Shown: positions 14,250 through 28,909, numbered from the stretch's first letter. The stretch: DNA of 32,937 nt from Candidatus Ozemibacteraceae bacterium (GCA_937998695.1 CALLCO010000278.1:1-32937); one strand, 5' to 3'. Made by a program: numbers and translations. The notes: generated by a model from the sequence alone, not told the origin.

Positions 14250-15704
14250 TCAGAATTTGTTCTCGCCGGCCACGGCGTTGACCTTGTAGTCGACCGTGAT
14301 CGTGGTGGCGGTCATGGTCTTGATCTTGATCAGGGCATAGTGGCCGGTGGCGGGGAAATAGAGCGAGAACACGTCGCCCACGGTGGCGGGGCCGGTCATG
14401 TTGAGGGCGTCCTTGGCGGCGGTGGTATGCGCGGCGAACCGCGTATCACCCTGCACGAAGGGTTCGGCGTAGGTCATTTCGGCCAGTTCAGGTTTGCCTT
14501 GGTAGGCCCGCACCAGCTTGACGGCATCGCTGGTCGAACCGAGGCCGCGGGCGGCATCGAGAAAGCTCAGGTTGGTGGCGGCAGCGGCCCCGTCGGTCAG
14601 GAAGTCGGAGGCGGCCACGGCGCCCGCCTCAGGGTCGGCTCCCGCCCGCAGGAAGGTCTTGGTGCCGGTGGCGACGGCGGTGGCGGTGGCGGTGACATAG
14701 CGATACTCGGCGACCACGCCCCGGAAACTGCCTTCCACGAGGTCGATGCGCTTGATGAACAGTTTGAGGTAGGTGTCGGCCACCGCGCTGCGCTTGAAGT
14801 AGAGGCCCAGGGCGAAATTCTTCGCCGCGGGGTCATGGAAGCGATCGGTGCGGGTGCGGTTGGCGGCGAAGTCGGCGAGCAGTTCGGCGTCGCGGTATTC
14901 CCCGACCGAGGTGAGATCGCTCTTCAGCGAGCTCGAGGCCGAGAGGGCGGTGAAGATCCGGATGGCGGTACCGTCGATGTTCTTGACGATCTGCAGGTCG
15001 GGAACGCCGTCGCTGTCGAGATCGTTGCTGGTCTTCAGGTAGGCCACCATGGCGGCAGGGTCGAACCCGGAGGTGGTCTTCAGGAAGTCGGCCTGGCTGG
15101 CCACCTCGTTCTTGACTTCGGGAACGTCGAAGATGGTGGTGGGCACACTGGCGGTATCGGCCAGCCAGGCGGTTTCGAGGCGTTGGGCGACGAGGCCGAC
15201 CATGGCGGGGAAGGTGGCGAGCAGGGCGTCGGCCTCGAGGCCGGAGGCCTGGGCCAGCAGCGCGGCGGCGGTCGTGCGACTGTTGATGGCGAACGCCGAG
15301 CGCGACGCTTCCCGCACCCGGGCCTTCAGGCCAACCTTGCCGACGTTGACGTCGAGGCGGTAGAGCTGATCGGCCGCCTGGGGCACCTGCAACCGGAACT
15401 CCCAGTCGCCTGAGAAGGTCGAGGTGGCCAGGGTGAAGGCGGTCACCACCTGGTCGTTGACCGCCACGGCCGGCTTCGACCAGGCGTTGCCGGTGGTGGT
15501 GTCGGTGTTGCGCACCTCCTGTACCGCCGCCAGCAGGTTGCTGTTGAGCCGGGTCGGCAGCGTCAGGGTGCCGGCCAGTTCGACCGTCGCCGCCGGCGGG
15601 GTCGGCGACGACCCGCCGTCCTTGCCGCCGAAACAGCCGGTCAGCAGCAGAATTCCCGTCAGAGCGACACCAAGCACCAAGGGCGGCACACATCTGTTCA
15701 TCAT
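14250..15704 (-). CDS. Lipoprotein of unknown function
   Basis: A 484-residue protein whose N-terminus is a lipoprotein signal: hydrophobic LVLGVALTGILLLTGC, with lipobox LTGC and modified Cys at 24. A Gly/Ser/Pro-rich tether (FGGKDGGSSPTPP) follows. The mature part starts with a beta-like region and has long Ala-rich helical stretches. DLDSDGVPDLQ looks like a calcium-binding loop of the dockerin/EF-hand type. I do not recognise the family. GGGGA lies 7 nt before the first ATG. The start overlaps the stop of the upstream exported protein (TAATG), so the two are translationally coupled and probably function together at the envelope. Confidence 0.82.
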   Translation of the reverse strand: MMNRCVPPLVLGVALTGILLLTGCFGGKDGGSSPTPPAATVELAGTLTLPTRLNSNLLAAVQEVRNTDTTTGNAWSKPAVAVNDQVVTAFTLATSTFSGDWEFRLQVPQAADQLYRLDVNVGKVGLKARVREASRSAFAINSRTTAAALLAQASGLEADALLATFPAMVGLVAQRLETAWLADTASVPTTIFDVPEVKNEVASQADFLKTTSGFDPAAMVAYLKTSNDLDSDGVPDLQIVKNIDGTAIRIFTALSASSSLKSDLTSVGEYRDAELLADFAANRTRTDRFHDPAAKNFALGLYFKRSAVADTYLKLFIKRIDLVEGSFRGVVAEYRYVTATATAVATGTKTFLRAGADPEAGAVAASDFLTDGAAAATNLSFLDAARGLGSTSDAVKLVRAYQGKPELAEMTYAEPFVQGDTRFAAHTTAAKDALNMTGPATVGDVFSLYFPATGHYALIKIKTMTATTITVDYKVNAVAGENKF

Positions 15705-18781: not shown

Positions 18782-21700
18782 TCAGAGTTTGCGGTAGACG
18801 ACGACCTTCTCGTAGGTCTGCAGGCGGAAGGCCTTGGTGACATTGTACAACGACTCCTTCGAGCCGATGAACAGGGCCCCGCCGGGGGTCAGGATGTTGT
18901 AGATGTTCTCGGCCAGGCGTTCCCGTTGCCGCTGCGCGAAGGACGAGAAGAGGTTGCGGGCCACCACGACGTCGAACTCGCCGAGGGCCTCCATCTCCTT
19001 GGTGGCACTGGCGTTCACGTATTTGAACTCCACCAGGTTCTTCACTTCATCCTTGATGCGCAGGTCGCCGCGGTCGTCCTCGAAGTAGAGGTCGATGTAC
19101 TTCTGGTCGACGTGCCGCAGCATCTCGCGCTTGTAGATGCCCCGCTTGGCAGTATTCAGACAGATGTGGGAGATGTCGGTGCCGGTGACCATCACCTTGA
19201 CCCGGTCGGAATGGACTTCCTCGAGGATGCTCATGGCCAGGGAGTAGGCCTCCGGGCCGAACGAGGAGCCGATCGACAGGATGCGCAGGGTGTTCTTGCC
19301 CTGCCGCACGCACTCCTCGATCAATTCAGGAATGGTAGTGGTGATGAGCACCTTGGTCTGCTCGGGCTCCGAGAAGAAGTTGGTACGGGGGTCGGTGATC
19401 GAATCGTAGAGGCTGATAAGAATGTTCTGGTCGTCCGCCCCGTAGCGCAGGCAGTGGTAGTATTCCATCCACGAGGTGATGTAGAAGCGGTCGAGGTTCT
19501 TCTTGAGGGACCGCTCCAGGGACTTGCGGTCGGCCAGACCGATGCCGCAGCGCTCGGCGATGATCTCGCGCAGCAGATAGCCTTCCTCGGCGTTGAGGAC
19601 GCCGGCGGCTTCGCTGCCGCCCGATTGGCGCTCGATGCGGGCCAGCTCGCGGGGGGTGGCCACCGCCTGCAGGATCGAGTCGAGCAGCGGGCACTTGTTG
19701 TTCTGGTAAGCGGCCAGGAAGTAGGCGCGGGCCCAGGGGTGCAACTGCAGGATGTTCTTCAGCTTGGCCTCGAGGTCGGCCACATCGGGGTTCTGGAAGA
19801 TCAGGAAGAATTTGACCGCCGCGATGATCAGATCGCGATCTTCGTGTTCGAGCAGGGCGAGGGCGGCATTGACCGATTTCTTGTCGTTGATCCGGGCGAG
19901 GGCCAGCAGGGCTTTGGCGCGCACGCCGTTGTTGACGTCGGTTTCGGCGAGCTTGATCAGGGCATCGACGGCCTTCTGGCTCTTGATCTTGCCCAGGGCT
20001 TTGACGATCTGGTACCGCACCTCCCATTTCGGGTGCGACAGGTATTTCCGGAACGTATCGTCGAGGGTGCGATCTTCCAACTCGCTGAGAGCGACCACGG
20101 CGAGCTTGGCCACCTGCGGGTTGGCGTCACCCAGCAGCGGCACGAAGAACTGCTTCAGTTCCTTGCTCTTGAACGCGCGCAACGCCGACAGGGCCGCAAT
20201 GCGGATCTGCCAGTCGTCGTGCTTGAGCAGTTCCTTGAGCGGGAAGATGGACTTGAGGTCCTTCATGTTCTCGAGGGACTGACAGGCGTTGACGACGACG
20301 CGCCATTCCTTGTCGTTGAGCTTGTTGATCAGGGAATCGACGGCCAGGGTCGACCCGCACTGCCAGATCGTCTTGGTGATCGTCTCGCGGATGCGGGAGT
20401 TGTCGCTATCGAGCATCTCGAGCAGGCGCCTGGTGATCTCGGGGTCTTTGCGAGACGCCAGGACGGTGGCGGCCGCCTCCCGCACGTCGCCGTAGGGCTC
20501 CTGCAGGATGACGTTGAACAGGGGCTCCTCGATCTGACGGGAGGTGGTGCCCATCATCGCGAAGGCCGCCTCACGCCGCACGTGGCCGTTGATGTCCTTC
20601 AACGCCCCGATCAGGGCGGTGAGGGCACCATCGTAGGTCAGCATCTGGCGCAGACCCATCACGGCCGACTTGCGGACGATCTCGTCGGGATCGTGCAGCA
20701 GTTCGCGCAAGGCGGTGAAGCTGGTGTCGGAGGGGTTGGCCCCGAAGGTGCGGGCCAGCGCTTGTCGGACGGCGTCTTCCGGGTTACGGGAGAACAGAAC
20801 GATGCCCTTGGGGATATCGGGATGCGGTACCTTCTCGAGCAGTTCGAGGATCCGGATGCAGACCGGGGCGGCCACGCGGCCGATCCGCTCGAGGGCAGCC
20901 TTGACGACCTTGGTTCCCAGGCGCACCAGCCCGTGGAAGGCGATCTCGACGATCTCGGGCTCGGGGTTCTCGAGGGCGGTCAACAGGGCCGGGCCGTAGC
21001 ATTCGTTCTCGAGGGCGGCGGCGATGCGGACCAGGAAGATGTATTCGGCGGCATCCTGCTGTTCGAGCAGTTCGAGTAGGATGGGTTTGAGCGCGTCATG
21101 GTTCAGCTTCTTGACGGCACCGGGGTTGGCGTCCTCGATCTGGGAGATCGACTTGAGGATCAGCCGGCGGGTGCCGCCGTCATCTTCCTTCAGCAGCTTC
21201 TTGAACAGCGGCTCGAGGCATTCAGCCTTTTCCATGGCGCCCATGGCGCCGATGGCGGAGAAATACTCGAGCACGTCTTCCGACTCGAGGGCGCTCATGA
21301 CGACCGGCAGCACGTCTTTGGTGGCGATGTTGCCCAGCGCCTCGACGATGGAATACTTCAGGATGTCGGTCTGGTGATAGGTGTTGATCAGGGTCTTGAC
21401 GGCCCGCGCATCCTGGATCTTGCCCAGGGCCTCGACCGCGGTGGTCTTGACGTTGTCGTCTTCATGCGCGACGTATTTCAGACAGGTGTCGGTGGCCAGG
21501 TTCGATTGGATGTTGCCCAGTACCACAAGGATCTGGATGATCTCGTCGACGTCGGTGGCTTCGCTGATGGCCTTGATCAGATGGGTCACGGCGGGCGGGC
21601 CGTATTCCTTGAGGACCGACATACCCGCATTGCGGGTATTGAGATCGGACCCGCGGATGACCGGCAGCAGGGCCGCAATGACGTTTGGGTGGCGGATCTG

Positions 21701-21877
21701 CGACAGGGTCTCGACGGCGGTATTCTGCACGCCCTTGTTGGGATCGCCCAGGGCCTCGACCAGACCTTCGACGGCTTCCTTGTCGGGAAAGGCGACGAGG
21801 TCGCGCACGGCCCGCCGGCGCACGCCAGCATCGGCATCCCGCAACTTCTCGAGCAGCATGGGGAGGGAGTTCGTCAT
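18782..21877 (-). CDS. HEAT-repeat protein fused to a CheR-type methyltransferase
   Basis: A 1031-residue two-part protein. Residues 1 to about 750 are some 20 tandem HEAT/PBS-lyase-like repeats of 30-38 residues (PDKEAVEGLVEALGDPNKGV; VRYQIVKALGKIKSQKAVDA), a curved protein-binding scaffold. Residues about 755-1031 are a complete CheR, the SAM-dependent glutamate methyltransferase of chemoreceptors: an N-terminal helical part (EEGYLLREIIAERCGIGL), TNFFSEPEQ (832-840), the SAM loop RILSIGSSFGPEAYSLAM (about 864-881), GTDISHICLNTAKRGIY and FDVVVARNLFSSFAQ (about 965-979). Compared with classical CheR, the Arg of T-x-F-F-R-E is Ser836 and GEEPYS is GPEAYS; one acidic residue and the Ser are kept, so activity is possible but not assured. 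It starts 3 nt after the CheY-like gene. No MCP, CheA, CheB or CheW gene is in the window. Confidence 0.9.
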   Translation of the reverse strand: MTNSLPMLLEKLRDADAGVRRRAVRDLVAFPDKEAVEGLVEALGDPNKGVQNTAVETLSQIRHPNVIAALLPVIRGSDLNTRNAGMSVLKEYGPPAVTHLIKAISEATDVDEIIQILVVLGNIQSNLATDTCLKYVAHEDDNVKTTAVEALGKIQDARAVKTLINTYHQTDILKYSIVEALGNIATKDVLPVVMSALESEDVLEYFSAIGAMGAMEKAECLEPLFKKLLKEDDGGTRRLILKSISQIEDANPGAVKKLNHDALKPILLELLEQQDAAEYIFLVRIAAALENECYGPALLTALENPEPEIVEIAFHGLVRLGTKVVKAALERIGRVAAPVCIRILELLEKVPHPDIPKGIVLFSRNPEDAVRQALARTFGANPSDTSFTALRELLHDPDEIVRKSAVMGLRQMLTYDGALTALIGALKDINGHVRREAAFAMMGTTSRQIEEPLFNVILQEPYGDVREAAATVLASRKDPEITRRLLEMLDSDNSRIRETITKTIWQCGSTLAVDSLINKLNDKEWRVVVNACQSLENMKDLKSIFPLKELLKHDDWQIRIAALSALRAFKSKELKQFFVPLLGDANPQVAKLAVVALSELEDRTLDDTFRKYLSHPKWEVRYQIVKALGKIKSQKAVDALIKLAETDVNNGVRAKALLALARINDKKSVNAALALLEHEDRDLIIAAVKFFLIFQNPDVADLEAKLKNILQLHPWARAYFLAAYQNNKCPLLDSILQAVATPRELARIERQSGGSEAAGVLNAEEGYLLREIIAERCGIGLADRKSLERSLKKNLDRFYITSWMEYYHCLRYGADDQNILISLYDSITDPRTNFFSEPEQTKVLITTTIPELIEECVRQGKNTLRILSIGSSFGPEAYSLAMSILEEVHSDRVKVMVTGTDISHICLNTAKRGIYKREMLRHVDQKYIDLYFEDDRGDLRIKDEVKNLVEFKYVNASATKEMEALGEFDVVVARNLFSSFAQRQRERLAENIYNILTPGGALFIGSKESLYNVTKAFRLQTYEKVVVYRKL

Positions 21878-21880
21878 GGC

Positions 21881-22276
21881 TCAGGCCCCCTTTCCCGGCC
21901 CGCCGGCCCTCTTGCCCAAAAGACGCTCCACTTCCTGCAGCATCAGGTCGGGCTTGATCGGCTTCTGGAGGAACGAGTTGGCGCCAAGCGTCAGCCCCTT
22001 CATCACCATGTCCTTTTTCCCTTCCGTGGTCAGGATGATGATGGGGATGTGCTTGAACTTCTCGTTCTCCTTGACTTGCGTGATCAATTCGAAGCCATCC
22101 ATGCCGGGCATGTTGAGGTCGGTGATGATGATGTCGACTTCGTTCTTGGACATTGCTTCGATCGCCTCGATGCCGTTGTTGGCTTCGAGCACCTTGTAAC
22201 CCGCCTTCTCGAGCGGGAAACAGGCGACCTTTCGCAACATCAAGGAGTCTTCAGCCACCAGGACGGTTTTGGCCAT
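21881..22276 (-). CDS. CheY-like single-domain response regulator
   Basis: A 131-residue stand-alone receiver. It has the acidic pocket (VLVAEDS), the phosphoacceptor Asp in IIITDLNMPGMDG, the switch Thr in IIILTTEGKK and the conserved Lys in FLQKPIKP, so it should be phosphorylatable. There is no output domain, so it acts by protein contact; the tail GKRAGGPGKGA is a short basic extension. GGAGG is 8 nt before ATG 22276, and a strong promoter lies upstream. The HEAT-CheR gene begins 3 nt after its stop, so the two are made together and the receiver is the obvious candidate to bind or control the HEAT scaffold. The cognate kinase is not in the window. Confidence 0.93.
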   Translation of the reverse strand: MAKTVLVAEDSLMLRKVACFPLEKAGYKVLEANNGIEAIEAMSKNEVDIIITDLNMPGMDGFELITQVKENEKFKHIPIIILTTEGKKDMVMKGLTLGANSFLQKPIKPDLMLQEVERLLGKRAGGPGKGA

Positions 22277-22733
22277 TGCAGAATCCTCCGGTAAGTTACT
22301 GGGAACACTGGTAGCAGATTATACCGAGAGCCCGGGGGAAATTGCAATCGCTAAGAAAAGGGACGAAAACCATCCCCCCGACGCCGGATTTTCCCCTGGC
22401 AAGAGACTTGAGGCCATCCCGGCATGACCATGGGACTACCGGCCTGGTACCCTATGGGGCCGGGGGAAGGGTACCTGGCAGGCCCAGGGGAATTCTGGCG
22501 AAACGAGGCCGCCTTCCCTGGGAGCTGAGTTTGAGAGCGGGATTTGGGGGGTGGGGGGGAGATCAGGAAGGCCTCTGAGCCGGGTCTTGACCGCCCCCCA
22601 CGGCTTCCCCTTTCCGACCGGGTGGGTCACTCGCACACACGCAAACAGGGCCCTGCGAGCAGGAGGGGAAGGGAAAACGGCTCTCCATCCGGATCGCCAA
22701 TCGCTGGGCTGACCGTGGGGAATCTCCCTGCGG
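22277..22733. other. Intergenic region upstream of the receiver gene
   Basis: Besides the promoter at 22318-22347, this 457-bp stretch has an 8-bp inverted repeat GGTACCCT/AGGGTACC (22446-22453 with 22468-22475) and G-runs (about 22545-22560). I see no convincing gene. It ends in the terminator hairpin of the TPR gene. Confidence 0.5.
22318..22347 (-). promoter_or_regulatory. Strong sigma-70-type promoter of the receiver/HEAT-CheR operon
   Basis: On the minus strand a perfect TATAAT (22318-22323) is preceded by TTGCAA (22342-22347) at 18 bp. The expected start leaves a leader of about 35 nt before ATG 22276. This is the best housekeeping-type promoter in the window. Confidence 0.75.
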
Positions 22734-22740
22734 TCAGCCC
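22706..22740 (-). terminator. Hairpin overlapping the TPR gene stop codon
   Basis: GGGCTGACCG (22706-22715) pairs perfectly with 22731-22740, and the inner GGGGA/TCTCCC can extend the stem. The TGA stop of the TPR gene (22734-22736) lies in the stem. No U-tract follows, so terminator function is likely but not proven. Confidence 0.5.
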
Positions 22741-24632
22741 TTCACTTTGCCGTAGAGGGCCCGCAGATGGCGACGGGTGCTGGGTTCGGCCTGGACCTGG
22801 AGACCGGCCTCCACCCGCTCGCGGGCTTGTTTGTGCTCGCGGCGCTCGAAGTGGTACAGGGCCAGGTAGAGGTTGGCGCGGGCGCACTCCGGGTTCTTCT
22901 GCAGCTCTTCGCGCAGGGCCTGCAATCCGAATCCCGCGGCCAGAGCACTGTTGTCGGCATCGCCGGCGGCGAACAGGTGGGAGGAGAGAGCCAGGTAGGC
23001 CCGGCCGATCTCGGCCAGATCGCGGGCATCGTGGAAACAGCGCAGCGCCATGAAGAAGGATCCCCGCTTCAGGAAGTCCTCGCCGATGGCCTTCAGGTCC
23101 TCGGCGTGGTTGCCCCGGCTGCCCGGCAGGGCCAGCAGGCTGGCGACATCGACCCGCCCGCCCTGGCGCTCGACCCGCTCGCATTCGGCCAGGACACGCC
23201 CGGCCAGGATCTGCACCTGCGGGTCGCGGGTCTGCTCGAGGCCCTGCCGAAGGGCCGCCTGGCCCTCGCGCAGCTTCCCCTGCATGCAGATCAGCAATGC
23301 GCGCATCACTCCGACCCGGGGGTCGCCGGGGGCGAGCCGGTCCACCAGGTTCAGGTATTTGGCCACCCCTGCCGGATCGAACCGGGCGGTCAGATAGAAC
23401 TTCGCCAGGTTCATCGCCGCTTCGGCCGAGTCGGGGTTGGCCCGCATGATCTGGACGAGCGTCCGCTCGGCCCCCGCGTAATCACGCATGCCCATCTGGG
23501 CTTCCGCCAGCATCCGGGACAGGAACATGTCATCGGGCACCTGGCGCAGCAGGTTGGTGAACAGGCCGGCCGCCACCGCATAATGTTCGGCACCGAGCGC
23601 CACCCCCCCGACCAGGCGGGCGACATCCTGGGGTGAAGAAGCGGTCTGGGCGCGGTTGTAGACGTCGAGGAACGAGGCGTACGTCTCTTTGCTCAGGAGG
23701 GGTTTGAGCTTGAACAACTGCTGTCCGAACTCGCGCAGATCCATGCGGTAGAGGTTGAGGAGACTGCGGTGGATCTGGGATTCCAGGAACCGGCGGGTGT
23801 CGCGGGCCTTGAGGGCAGCCACTTCGGCATCGCGCAGATGATCGGCGGCCTTGTCCAGTTCGCCTTTTTCCATGCAGAACTTGGCGTATTCGAGACTGAT
23901 GCCGAAGGCGCCCTTCGTCTGCTGCAGAAAGTCGGTGACCTTCCAGGTCGAGACCGCCCGGGCGGGAGGGGGAACCGGCGCATCGGGGTCGCGGGCGGGA
24001 GCGGGGACAGGAGCTGCGGGGGCGACCGCTGGGGAGCGGGAGGCTCCCTTCCGGGGGGCGGGGGCGGGCTCCTCGTCCACCACGACGCCAGGGCGCATGG
24101 GAAGCGGCTGGAAGCCGGCCGGAACGTTCTCCCGGCCATCTTCCGCGGAAGCGGCCACCGGGGCGGCGGGCGAAGGGGCAGCCCTCCCTTCGAGCGTGGC
24201 CATCAAGGAACGGGCCTCGGCGTGTTCCGGCTGAACCTGGAGGATCCAGGCGAGCTGCTGCCGGGCTTCGGTCGTGCGTCCAAGGCTGATCAGACCCTGC
24301 GCCAGGGCGACCCGGGCGGTCACGTGGTTGGGATGTTTCCCGAGAAGCGCAGCGAAGTGGGCGATGCTCTCCTCGGTGCGACCGAGCGCCTGCAGAGCCT
24401 GGCCCAAGCGGAACCGGGGACGGACCTGGTCAGGTTGAACAGCCAGGGCGTTCGAGAAACAGGTCACCGCCTCCTCGAACCGCCGCTGTCCGAACGCCGC
24501 TTCCCCCGCTTCGAAATTGGCAAGGAACACGTCGCGACTGGCAGCCGGGATCGATCCGGACACGGGGATCAGGGCCCCTCCGACCAACAACCATACCACC
24601 ACGACGCCTGTCGCGATCTTCCGCACGTTCAT
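22734..24632 (-). CDS. Large exported or membrane-anchored TPR protein
   Basis: A 632-residue protein with a hydrophobic N-terminal segment (IATGVVVVWLLVGGALIPVSG, about 5-26) acting as signal peptide or anchor. Residues about 35-150 hold three canonical TPRs (FEAGEAAFGQRRFEEAVTCF; FRLGQALQALGRTEESIAHF; VALAQGLISLGRTTEARQQL). A Pro/Ala-rich linker covers about 150-225, and the remaining 400 residues are further degenerate TPRs (DYAGAERTLVQIMRANPDS; ANLYLALYHFERREHKQARE). The start is ATG 24632, with GAGG 5 nt upstream, rather than the GTG two codons earlier. Such proteins act as extracytoplasmic assembly scaffolds; the partner is unknown. It diverges from the FlgM-like gene. Confidence 0.85.
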   Translation of the reverse strand: MNVRKIATGVVVVWLLVGGALIPVSGSIPAASRDVFLANFEAGEAAFGQRRFEEAVTCFSNALAVQPDQVRPRFRLGQALQALGRTEESIAHFAALLGKHPNHVTARVALAQGLISLGRTTEARQQLAWILQVQPEHAEARSLMATLEGRAAPSPAAPVAASAEDGRENVPAGFQPLPMRPGVVVDEEPAPAPRKGASRSPAVAPAAPVPAPARDPDAPVPPPARAVSTWKVTDFLQQTKGAFGISLEYAKFCMEKGELDKAADHLRDAEVAALKARDTRRFLESQIHRSLLNLYRMDLREFGQQLFKLKPLLSKETYASFLDVYNRAQTASSPQDVARLVGGVALGAEHYAVAAGLFTNLLRQVPDDMFLSRMLAEAQMGMRDYAGAERTLVQIMRANPDSAEAAMNLAKFYLTARFDPAGVAKYLNLVDRLAPGDPRVGVMRALLICMQGKLREGQAALRQGLEQTRDPQVQILAGRVLAECERVERQGGRVDVASLLALPGSRGNHAEDLKAIGEDFLKRGSFFMALRCFHDARDLAEIGRAYLALSSHLFAAGDADNSALAAGFGLQALREELQKNPECARANLYLALYHFERREHKQARERVEAGLQVQAEPSTRRHLRALYGKVKG

Positions 24633-25047
24633 GGTCACCTCGCTTCGGGGATGACATCCCGATCCCGTCTGGAATGCCCGAATCTGCCGTTTCTCTTAAT
24701 CTCATCGACCAGATCGGGGAATTCCCCCACCCTCTCCTCTATCACAGAAGAAAAATCGACCGCCACATGGCCCTCCTCCCACCATGGTTCAGGTGATCCC
24801 TGGCGGCTCAACAGAGCCGAGGCGGAACCTCCTGCCCGGCTGGGAACCCAAGCCAGCAGGTCAGGAAACCTGAAGCCTGGATGGGATTCAGAAAGAAGGG
24901 AGATTCTGCTGATACGAAGGTGGTGGTGATTTTTGTGGGGGAAGGGTTAAGTTCTGGCCGATTTTGCCGATAATGAAAGTAGGAATAGGGAAAATAGGCC
25001 CAAAAAACAGGGGCCGATTCCACACGGATGTACGAGGGAGTTCGGAT
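24633..25047. other. Intergenic region between divergent TPR and FlgM-like genes
   Basis: This 415-bp stretch must hold the TPR gene promoter on the minus strand, which I could not place with confidence. It also contains the sigma-28 promoter at 24947-24973. From about 24890 the sequence becomes less GC-rich. No gene is supported. Confidence 0.55.
24947..24973 (+). promoter_or_regulatory. Sigma-28 (FliA) promoter
   Basis: TTAAGTTC-N11-GCCGATAA. The -10 element is a perfect match to the flagellar sigma-28 consensus GCCGATAA, the spacer is exactly 11 bp, and the -35 element matches TAAAGTTT at six of eight positions. The transcript would start near 24980, about 65 nt before ATG 25048. Confidence 0.82.
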
Positions 25048-25542
25048 ATGGTCGACCCGATCAAAGGTCCGGGCCACAAGCCCATCATCGCTGACAAGAC
25101 CCAGGGCAAGGACAAGGCGGAGAAAACCAAGGACGGCGACTTCGACAAGCGGCTCGCCGGCAAGGAAAAGACCGCCAGCGCCGAGCCGCCCAAGGCCGGC
25201 CAGGTCCGCACCGCCGGGGACCAGACCGCCCGACTCCTGCAACAGCAGCAGCTCGAGAGGATGCAGCGCATCGCCGAGATCACCCGGCAGGTCCAGAGCG
25301 GCACCTACAAGATGGCCGATCCCACCGTGCTGGCCGATCGCCTCTACCGCATCATGACCGACCGCAAGACCCGAGACAAATTCATCAAAAAAGTGCTCGC
25401 GGAAGAGGCCGAAACCCTCAAGGAACGGGGCCTGCCGCTAACCAAGTTGGAGCTGAAGAAACTCATTTTCCTGGTCAAGAACGCCTCCGACGAAGAGTTC
25501 TCTGACCCGCACCTGGAAGCCCTTCTCAAAGAACTGAGCTGA
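25048..25542 (+). CDS. FlgM-like anti-sigma-28 protein
   Basis: A 164-residue soluble protein. The start at ATG 25048 follows GAGGGAG by 7 nt; the in-frame ATG at 24964 would lie inside the promoter. Residues 1-60 are charged, Lys-rich and probably disordered, as in FlgM, which is secreted unfolded through the flagellar export gate. Residues about 72-103 (RIAEITRQVQSGTYKMADPT then VLADRLYRIM) match the FlgM core pattern of helix, SGTY, short loop, helix that contacts sigma-28. The last 60 residues are an extra helical region (LKERGLPLTKLELKKLIFLV ... LEALLKELS) not found in classical FlgM of about 100 residues. The sigma-28 promoter in front supports a flagellar role by feedback. No other flagellar gene is in the window, and the homology is short, so I leave the symbol blank. 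Confidence 0.65.
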   Translation: MVDPIKGPGHKPIIADKTQGKDKAEKTKDGDFDKRLAGKEKTASAEPPKAGQVRTAGDQTARLLQQQQLERMQRIAEITRQVQSGTYKMADPTVLADRLYRIMTDRKTRDKFIKKVLAEEAETLKERGLPLTKLELKKLIFLVKNASDEEFSDPHLEALLKELS

Positions 25543-26416: not shown

Positions 26417-28909
26417 ATGTCCAAACGCATCGTCATCGTCGGCGGCGTCGCCGGAGGGGCTTCGGCCGCCACCCGGGCCCGCCGACTCGACGAGAACGCC
26501 GAGATCGTCGTCCTCGAACGCGGCCCCTACGTCAGCTTTGCCAACTGCGGCCTGCCCTACCACATCGGGGGGATCATCAAGGACCGCGACGACCTGCTGC
26601 TGCAGACGCCGGAATCGCTCAAGAAGCGGTTCAACCTCGACGTACGGGTCAACACCGAGGCGGTGCGCATCGTGCCGGCCAAACGCCAGGTGCTCGTCCG
26701 TGACCTCGAGAACAACCGAGAATACACCCTCGACTACGACGATCTGATCCTGGCCCCGGGGGCGGAACCCTTCCGCCCGCCGTTGCCGGGCATCGACCTG
26801 CCCAACGTCTTCACGTTGCGCACCATCCCTGACATGGACCGCATCATCGCCTGGCTTGAATCGCACCCGGTGCGCCACGTCTCGGTCATCGGGGCCGGGT
26901 TCATCGGGCTCGAGATCGTCGAGAACCTGCGCCACCGCGGCCTGGCCGTCAGCCTGATCGAGCGCGAGAAGCAGGTGATGCCGCCCCTCGACCCCGAGAT
27001 GGCAACCCTGCTGCATAAGCATTTGCGCTTTCATGGGGTCGACCTGCGCCTGGGCCAGACCGTGACCGGCATCACCGGAGGTGGACCCCGCAGTTCGGTG
27101 ACCTTCGCCGACGCCGGCCCCCTGGAAACGGATGCGGTGGTATTGGCGATCGGGGTCAGGGCCGAGGTGAAGCTGGCGCGGGAAGCCGGATTGGAACTCG
27201 GGCCCCGCGGCGGCATCAGGGTCGACGCCCGCATGCGCACCTCCGACCCGCACATCTACGCGGTCGGCGATGCGATCGAAACCGTCGACCGCGTTTCGGG
27301 CGAGCCGACCATGGTCTGGCTGGCCGGCCCCGCCAATAGACAAGGGCGACTGGCCGCCGACACCATCTGTGGCGCCGCCACTCCAGACTTCGGTGGCACC
27401 CAGGCCACCTGGATCTGCAAGGTCTTCGACCTGACCGTCGCGGCCACGGGCCATTCCGAGAAGCTTTTGAAGCGGGCGAACCGCTCCTACGCCAAAGTCT
27501 ACACTCATCCGGCGAGCCATGCGGGGTATTACCCCAATGCTTTTCCGATGAGCCTGAAACTCCTGTATGATCCCGCTGACGGGCGCATGTTGGGAGCGGC
27601 GGTGGTTGGCAGCGATGGCGTGGACAAGCGGATCGACGTGCTGGCCACGGCCCTTTACGCCAAACTGACCGTGCGCGACCTGGCCAACCTCGAACTGGCC
27701 TACGCGCCACCCTACGGGGCGGCCAAAGACCCGGTCAACATGGCGGGCATGGTCGCCTCGAATCTCATCGACGGCATCCACCTCGGAATCACGCCGGATC
27801 AGATTCCCACCCTTGTACCTGGGTCCTATCAGTTCGTCGATGTACGCACCGCCCCGGAGCACCAGACCGGGCACATCCCTGGATCTCTCCACATTCCGGT
27901 GGATGAGCTCCGGGAGCGACTCGGCGAACTTCCCACCGACAAGGAACTGATTCTGTATTGCCAGGTCGGGGTGCGCGGGTTCATCGCCCAGCGAGTTCTG
28001 AGCCAGAAGGGTTTTCGGGCCCGCAACCTGCTGGGCGGGTTCAAAACCTGGGGGATGTTTCATGAGGAAGCCCTGGACATCGGCGGTATTCCCCGACCGC
28101 TGGGAGAAGATGCGACCAGCTCGGCGAAACACACCTCGGATCAGCCGTCAGGCGGGGCAGACACCTTCGAACTGGATGCCTGCGGCCTGCAGTGCCCAGG
28201 CCCCCTGCTGAAAATGCGGGAACGGATGGACCAGCTCCAGCCCGGCCAGCGCCTGCGGGTGGTGGCCACCGATCCGGGCTTCCCGGCTGATGCCGCCGCC
28301 TGGGCGCACCGGTCGGGAAACCGACTGGTCGAGACGGTTCCCGAAGGCGGCCGGTTCGTCGCCGTCATCGAAAAAACCGCCGCGGGGATGTCACCGGCGG
28401 TGGCCTGTCCGACCACTCTGGCTGGTGGTCCGCCCCGGAAGAACGCGCTGACCATGGTCGTCTTCAGCAACGACCTCGACCGGGCCCTTGCCGCCTTCAT
28501 CATCGCCAACGGCGCCGCCGCCATGGGCATGGAGGTGACGCTGTTCTTCACCTTCTGGGGGCTCAACATCCTGCGCCGCCGGGATGCCCCGCCCGTCGAG
28601 AAATCGATGCTCGAGTCGATGTTCGGCATGATGATGCCCCAGGGCCCCGAGGCCCTGGGTTTGTCGAAGATGCACTTCGCCGGCCTGGGTACTGCCATGA
28701 TGAAGCATGTCATGGAGTCAAAGAAGGTCACCTCGCTACCGGAGCTGATCGCCTCGGCCAAGGCGGCCGGGGTAAAGCTGGTCGCCTGCACCATGAGCAT
28801 GGACGTCATGGGCATCAAGAAATCCGAGCTGATCGACGGCGTGACCGAGGGCGGAGTGGCCGCCTACATCGATGCCGCCGCCGCCTCCGGGATCAATCTC
28901 TTCGTCTGA
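26417..28909 (+). CDS. Four-domain persulfide/CoA-disulfide reductase-rhodanese-TusA-DsrE2 fusion
   Basis: An 830-residue sulfur-relay protein. Residues 1 to about 455 are a flavoprotein of the CoA-disulfide reductase/NADH persulfide reductase family: FAD motif VIVGGVAGGASAATRARRLD, active-site Cys44 in SFANCGLPY, NAD(P)H motif VIGAGFIGLE and IYAVGDA. Residues about 462-555 are a rhodanese with catalytic Cys515 (YCQVGVRG). About 585-655 is TusA, with Cys593 in the CPGP motif. About 675-830 is DsrE2-like (FFTFWGLNILRR; conserved Cys791 in ACTMSMDVMGI). Sulfur could pass between the four cysteines of one chain, with reduction to H2S or handover to a biosynthetic acceptor. AAGGAGG lies 8 nt before the ATG, 45 nt after arsR, so the two form an operon that is probably repressed without sulfane sulfur. 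Similar fusions exist in other phyla. Confidence 0.94.
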   Translation: MSKRIVIVGGVAGGASAATRARRLDENAEIVVLERGPYVSFANCGLPYHIGGIIKDRDDLLLQTPESLKKRFNLDVRVNTEAVRIVPAKRQVLVRDLENNREYTLDYDDLILAPGAEPFRPPLPGIDLPNVFTLRTIPDMDRIIAWLESHPVRHVSVIGAGFIGLEIVENLRHRGLAVSLIEREKQVMPPLDPEMATLLHKHLRFHGVDLRLGQTVTGITGGGPRSSVTFADAGPLETDAVVLAIGVRAEVKLAREAGLELGPRGGIRVDARMRTSDPHIYAVGDAIETVDRVSGEPTMVWLAGPANRQGRLAADTICGAATPDFGGTQATWICKVFDLTVAATGHSEKLLKRANRSYAKVYTHPASHAGYYPNAFPMSLKLLYDPADGRMLGAAVVGSDGVDKRIDVLATALYAKLTVRDLANLELAYAPPYGAAKDPVNMAGMVASNLIDGIHLGITPDQIPTLVPGSYQFVDVRTAPEHQTGHIPGSLHIPVDELRERLGELPTDKELILYCQVGVRGFIAQRVLSQKGFRARNLLGGFKTWGMFHEEALDIGGIPRPLGEDATSSAKHTSDQPSGGADTFELDACGLQCPGPLLKMRERMDQLQPGQRLRVVATDPGFPADAAAWAHRSGNRLVETVPEGGRFVAVIEKTAAGMSPAVACPTTLAGGPPRKNALTMVVFSNDLDRALAAFIIANGAAAMGMEVTLFFTFWGLNILRRRDAPPVEKSMLESMFGMMMPQGPEALGLSKMHFAGLGTAMMKHVMESKKVTSLPELIASAKAAGVKLVACTMSMDVMGIKKSELIDGVTEGGVAAYIDAAAASGINLFV

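Follow-up and report, generated by a model that had tools for sequence, protein, structure and literature searches.

A receiver gene and a HEAT-CheR gene form one unit

The window analysed here, a stretch of 32,937 nucleotides (nt) from Candidatus Ozemibacteraceae bacterium (GCA_937998695.1, CALLCO010000278.1:1-32937), is one entire contig of a Riflebacteria metagenome-assembled genome of the Ca. Ozemobacter group (4.5 Mb, 324 contigs). On its minus strand lie a gene for a CheY-like receiver and, after a spacing of 3 nt, a gene for a 1031-residue protein in which HEAT repeats are fused to a CheR methyltransferase fold (HEAT-CheR). The open reading frames (ORFs) matched exactly those given in an earlier note on this DNA. 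Among named organisms the closest is Candidatus Ozemobacter sibiricus, of the phylum Riflebacteria, with 93% identity across the HEAT-CheR protein. The features of the unit are listed below.

21881..22276, minus strand: single-domain receiver (CheY-like), 131 residues (ORF call; Pfam Response_reg, 7e-29)
18782..21877, minus strand: HEAT-CheR protein, 1031 residues (ORF call; Pfam; orthologs in the family)
22318..22347, minus strand: sigma-70-type promoter of the bicistron, TTGCAA-N18-TATAAT (10/12 matches)
22285..22289, minus strand: Shine-Dalgarno sequence GGAGG of the receiver gene (window sequence; equivalent in aligned relatives)
21886..21893, minus strand: AAAGGGGG, likely Shine-Dalgarno sequence of HEAT-CheR, lying within the receiver gene at its 3′ end (G-rich tract there in most relatives)
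19628..21865, minus strand: HEAT solenoid, residues ~5-750, ~24 repeats (Pfam HEAT_2; AlphaFold2 predicted local distance difference test score [pLDDT] ~90)
18785..19612, minus strand: full-length CheR fold, residues 756-1031 (Pfam CheR; AlphaFold2 pLDDT 92.5; Foldseek)

The spaced hexamers TTGCAA-N17/18-TATAAT and the GGAGG precede the receiver in aligned relatives, most clearly in 16 of 18 loci; the loci L047 and L049 have a looser first hexamer. The earlier description of a single strong promoter over both genes is fair, because these elements also precede the receiver in the relatives. Translation of HEAT-CheR is likely coupled to that of the receiver gene, judging from the position of its Shine-Dalgarno sequence within the receiver ORF. 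In the receiver, the phosphorylation residues E9/D10, D53, T83 and K105 are intact and invariant (21 orthologs). The alpha1 and beta4-alpha4 regions are almost invariant, and no other receiver found in the family is as well conserved.

Pfam assigned HEAT_2 (3e-82) and the CheR SAM-binding domain (2e-43, residues 832-1021; SAM, S-adenosylmethionine) to the 1031-residue protein. The repeats are thus HEAT and not tetratricopeptide repeats (TPR), by both Pfam and AlphaFold2, and no CheW fusion was found in the protein by Pfam. With AlphaFold2, residues 1-750 were predicted to form a single extended solenoid with about 49 helices, at a pLDDT near 90; about 24 repeats are therefore present instead of the roughly 20 counted earlier. 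Conserved patches lie at residues ~45-270 and ~385-600 of the solenoid. A fold search with the whole model returned only generic HEAT proteins (CAND1, importins, SF3B1). The CheR domain was also modelled alone, using an alignment with 31 relatives. This model (pLDDT 92.5) gave a full-length match to Salmonella CheR 1af7 (TM score 0.84) and matched 5ftw with a TM score of 0.72, and the earlier claim of a full-length CheR stood.

The pair is conserved within one family

The genome sample consisted of 382 genomes, mostly one per family. A HEAT-CheR ortholog was present in 22 of the 24 genomes of this GTDB family of uncultured bacteria, the two without one being 83% and 69% complete, and in 0 of 16 genomes of other Riflebacteria families. 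At each of the 21 complete loci the receiver lies directly 5′ of HEAT-CheR, with a gap of -4 to +4 nt. Identity across the family is 82-99% for the receiver and 51-93% for HEAT-CheR; any further receiver in the searched genomes reaches at most about 45%. Within the phylum sample (40 genomes) the receiver was found in exactly the 21 genomes with a complete HEAT-CheR, so that the two genes share the same phylogenetic limits. The unit is not a chance arrangement, since 21 complete loci preserve it, at identities as low as 51%. The receiver and HEAT-CheR are a dedicated, translationally coupled pair. A lack of joint conservation in relatives had been named beforehand as an outcome that would count against the proposal, and the pair survived this check.

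Catalytic and SAM-pocket residues of the CheR domain

In Salmonella CheR the key catalytic residues are two, Arg98 and Tyr235, and R98A bacteria fail to swarm (PMC3447774). The HEAT-CheR orthologs were aligned with 64 other CheRs (31 HEAT-linked, 30 not HEAT-linked and three Riflebacteria paralogs; the degenerate domain L005 was left out). Both catalytic residues are lost throughout the family.

19370..19372, minus strand: Ser836 at the position of catalytic Arg98 (S/A/D/G in 22/22 orthologs; R in 64/64 other CheRs; alignment)
18941..18943, minus strand: Ser979 at the position of catalytic Tyr235 (D/A/S/V/T in 22/22 orthologs; Y in 64/64 other CheRs; alignment)

The substitutes at the two positions vary among mostly small residues, even between close relatives; therefore no new fixed catalytic residue is seen. 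As both residues are lost in all the orthologs, methyl transfer is unlikely, and the idea that the receiver controls methylation, put forward in the earlier note, lost its footing. The two changes listed in that note, FFRE to FFSE and GEEPYS to GPEAYS, are both real in the alignment. The second of these matters less than had been thought because the conserved second Glu is kept, and a third, more telling change had been missed, the Tyr of RNVLIYF being Ser979.

The SAM pocket presents a different picture. Glu129, Asp154 and Asn212, which we take to be the SAM contacts of the Salmonella CheR structure, correspond to residues that are invariant in the family.

19250..19252, minus strand: Glu876, equivalent to Glu129 of GEEPYS, putative SAM contact, invariant (22/22; alignment)
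19175..19177, minus strand: Asp901, equivalent to Asp154, putative SAM contact, invariant (22/22; alignment)
19013..19015, minus strand: Asn955, equivalent to Asn212, putative SAM contact, invariant (22/22; alignment)

G874 and R974 are likewise invariant in the orthologs. The CheR part is under purifying selection, with a ratio of nonsynonymous to synonymous substitution (dN/dS) of ~0.04-0.22 where dS was measurable (dN 0.02-0.21, dS 0.38-0.94). The pattern of residues suggests that the CheR domain of HEAT-CheR is probably a SAM-binding pseudo-methyltransferase.

The same genome also holds a short degenerate CheR-like domain beside a CheA gene (L005, G000:C262:7061-7582), in which Arg98 is kept and His stands for Tyr235.

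HEAT-linked CheRs recur in other phyla

The earlier note had regarded the joining of HEAT repeats to CheR as unusual. To compare adjacency, only matches aligning to CheR alone were used, HEAT was counted if within 300 nt or fused, and genomes of other phyla were recognised by the kinship label 'same domain'. HEAT was adjacent or fused in 15 of the 24 highest-scoring CheRs outside the phylum compared with 3 of 25 among those scoring low (Fisher p = 3e-4), and the claim of rarity was therefore only partly right. HEAT lies 5′ of CheR on the same strand in 29/30 HEAT-linked loci, with spacing mostly of -12 to +35 nt, and the two are one fused protein in several of them (L083, L087, L088, L092). 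About 25 more HEAT-linked cheR loci (L057, L077-L096, L105-L124) were collected, from several other families. A receiver-bearing gene precedes HEAT in 14 of 29 loci and is also labelled CheB in three (L078, L084, L089). Most of the HEAT-linked loci carry CheA, CheW, CheB or methyl-accepting chemotaxis protein (MCP) genes as well.

Because HEAT is upstream of CheR in nearly all of these loci and a receiver gene stands before HEAT in about half, receiver, HEAT and CheR appear as a recurring module. The Riflebacteria protein has the fused form. The unit draws attention to a HEAT-CheR-(receiver) module that recurs among chemosensory clusters of several phyla and of which no description was found in the literature searched. 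Holding the long-branched HEAT-CheR clade with the main HEAT-linked CheRs in a CheR tree raised the likelihood (log-likelihood [lnL] +5.0, approximately unbiased test p-AU 0.595); this does not contradict an origin from the module but does not prove it, as a grouping with Riflebacteria paralogs is allowed too. The module CheRs keep R98 and Y235 and are found mostly among CheA, CheW, CheB or MCP genes. In contrast, the Riflebacteria unit is an orphan, is catalytically altered and has its own conserved single-domain receiver. It is most simply read as a relocated, fused and catalytically silenced derivative of the module.

The unit supplements an ordinary chemotaxis system

Among the matches listed on the contig there is none to CheB, CheW or an MCP and only one to CheR, in agreement with the earlier remark that no receptor, CheB or CheW is nearby. 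By these matches the unit is an orphan: it is neither encoded with CheB, CheA, CheW or MCP genes nor located among chemosensory genes. MCPs, CheW-domain proteins and CheB are present in 24/24 genomes of the family. In the two genomes examined, G017 and G006, an intact CheR adjoins CheB, and G006 has a separate 120-residue CheY-like gene (L102:390-752) two genes from fliM. The receiver/HEAT-CheR unit thus adds to the ordinary chemotaxis system and does not replace it. A test of the unit's role by loss of MCPs failed, as all the family genomes keep them together with CheW-domain proteins and CheB.

Two tandem CheA-like genes (~750-780 and 500-585 residues) lie in a chemotaxis cluster of three Riflebacteria genomes (L102:11725-15569, L097:5948-9851, L104:5277-9355). 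In G017 a gene for a 406-residue HEAT protein (L097:4724-5944) is convergent with them.

A two-input scaffold as the proposed mechanism

The explanation that fits best, which we advance tentatively and with slightly less than even confidence, is that the unit is a rewired derivative of the module: the receiver would dock on the HEAT solenoid, the CheR domain would retain a pocket for SAM or S-adenosylhomocysteine (SAH) with no methyl transfer, and the whole would act as a two-input scaffold. A kinase encoded at another locus, probably a CheA, would phosphorylate the receiver. By analogy with CheY7 and Cpc7, the phosphorylated receiver may then dock on the solenoid. By analogy with CheWS, the CheR domain may bind SAM or SAH without transferring a methyl group. 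The complex would in this way combine phosphorylation with the SAM/SAH level, and the two inputs might change the partner of the HEAT/CheR surface, which could belong to the chemosensory array or to flagellar control.

Precedents exist for the separate parts. In Myxococcus xanthus the single-domain receiver CheY7 binds the HEAT protein Cpc7 (PMC11514114, citing Darnell et al. 2014). The likeness is that of a single-domain receiver with a HEAT protein, and the Riflebacteria receiver has intact phosphorylation residues. However, the account in PMC11514114 gives Cpc7 27 helices and mentions no CheR, whereas here HEAT is fused to CheR; and binding was shown in Myxococcus, while for the Riflebacteria pair it is proposed by analogy. 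In the spirochete CheWS a CheR-like domain senses SAM without catalysis (PMC10653840). Both proteins have a CheR-derived domain that lacks the catalytic residues and keeps the SAM pocket, but CheWS is fused to CheW and is an array member with neither HEAT nor a receiver; SAM binding was measured for CheWS (PMC10653840), whereas for the Riflebacteria domain it is predicted from the kept pocket residues. CheR-TPR fusions also join CheR to a helical repeat, and a small subgroup with N-terminal TPR likewise lacks the catalytic residues. They differ in having a short TPR (often two repeats) in proteins of 320-690 residues, compared with ~24 HEAT repeats and a dedicated receiver here (PMC3447774). 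The HEAT protein OE2401F of Halobacterium salinarum binds CheD and the CheF-type OE2402F, and in haloarchaea HEAT proteins sit between the Che proteins and the motor (PMC2666748). OE2401F is similarly a HEAT_PBS protein in chemotaxis signalling, but has no CheR domain, its partners are CheD and OE2402F, and the motor is archaeal (PMC2666748).

Several points limit the proposed scaffold. Docking was modelled on a fusion, as the TGA stop of the receiver is in frame with the HEAT-CheR start and the DNA was read through with TGA as Trp (the stops of three relatives as Tyr); in the AlphaFold2 model of this read-through fusion the receiver had low confidence, with blocks of pLDDT 34-66, so that the model speaks neither for nor against docking. 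The position of the clade is not fixed by the CheR tree, which also allows a grouping with Riflebacteria CheRs (lnL +1.7). What stands 5′ of HEAT in the module is in many cases no CheY but a larger receiver protein or CheB. Finally, two lost residues alone do not prove that the CheR domain is inactive.

A more specific claim, possible but on the whole doubtful, is that a scaffold built on a pseudo-methyltransferase, gated by the phosphorylated receiver and sensing SAM, would be the first CheR-derived coincidence detector, reading a kinase signal together with the methyl donor and derived from a fused, relocated and silenced HEAT-CheR module. If true, this receiver-coupled case would join the few known CheR domains that have seemingly turned sensor or scaffold. 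It also offers a testable idea, that methyl-donor supply and phosphorylation are read together.

Alternative explanations

One alternative is an enzyme that still transfers methyl groups, by a changed chemistry and to a substrate other than a receptor; small residues at positions 98 and 235 would widen the site for another acceptor, and the receiver would gate access. This comes near the view of the earlier note and is rather unlikely. The invariant SAM-pocket residues and the strong constraint on the CheR part would suit such an enzyme, and the mostly small replacements (G/A/S/D) could indicate a reshaped pocket. However, the lost pair is the key catalytic one, R98A failing in vivo (PMC3447774), and the replacements differ even where relatives are close, which does not resemble a new catalytic site.

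The CheR fold could instead be kept purely for protein binding, with no use of SAM, and the receiver would switch this scaffold, directing it for instance to the flagellar switch or to the array; we give this only a small chance. HEAT proteins do connect Che proteins to the archaeal flagellum (PMC2666748), a FlgM-like gene is a neighbour and FliM is found in most genomes of the family. A dead pocket, though, would have no need of E876, D901 and N955, which are invariant in 22/22 orthologs.

It is very improbable that the receiver serves as the principal CheY of the motor, with HEAT-CheR merely as its phosphatase or sink: the strong conservation of the receiver, with its almost invariant alpha1 and beta4-alpha4 regions, speaks for this, but G006 has another CheY-like gene close to fliM. 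An ordinary chemoreceptor methyltransferase with a HEAT tether is highly improbable and was already disfavoured, for in spite of the full CheR fold and the MCPs, CheW-domain proteins and CheB of the family genomes, the catalytic residues are lost, the location is an orphan one, a separate intact CheR is kept beside CheB, and the alignment shows no beta-loop extension of the Salmonella type, which we take to be a mark of pentapeptide-binding CheRs.

Neighbouring genes and motility

Two conserved genes lie upstream of the unit.

22734..24638, minus strand: TPR protein with an N-terminal signal-like segment, a separate unit (Pfam TPR; matched in 16/20 searched ortholog loci)
25048..25542, plus strand: divergent gene for a FlgM-like (anti-sigma-28) protein, ~164 residues (matched in 13 ortholog loci)

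A hairpin with a 16-bp stem (22706-22740) stands at the end of the TPR gene. The Pfam FlgM score was 33.3 bits in the ortholog at L055 (cut-off 25) and borderline in the window copy. With FliM in most of them, the family genomes have the gene content of flagellated, chemotactic bacteria. As the FlgM-like and TPR genes are also conserved neighbours, motility is a fair guess for the output of the unit, and no more. A flagellar link by co-occurrence was tried and failed, FliM being present also in Riflebacteria families without the pair.

Elsewhere in the window, positions 14250-15704 encode a putative lipoprotein without a Pfam match, relatives of which sit directly downstream of HEAT-CheR in several other loci. 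Positions 26417-28909 encode an 830-residue protein combining pyridine nucleotide-disulphide oxidoreductase, rhodanese, TusA and DsrE-like domains (Pfam).

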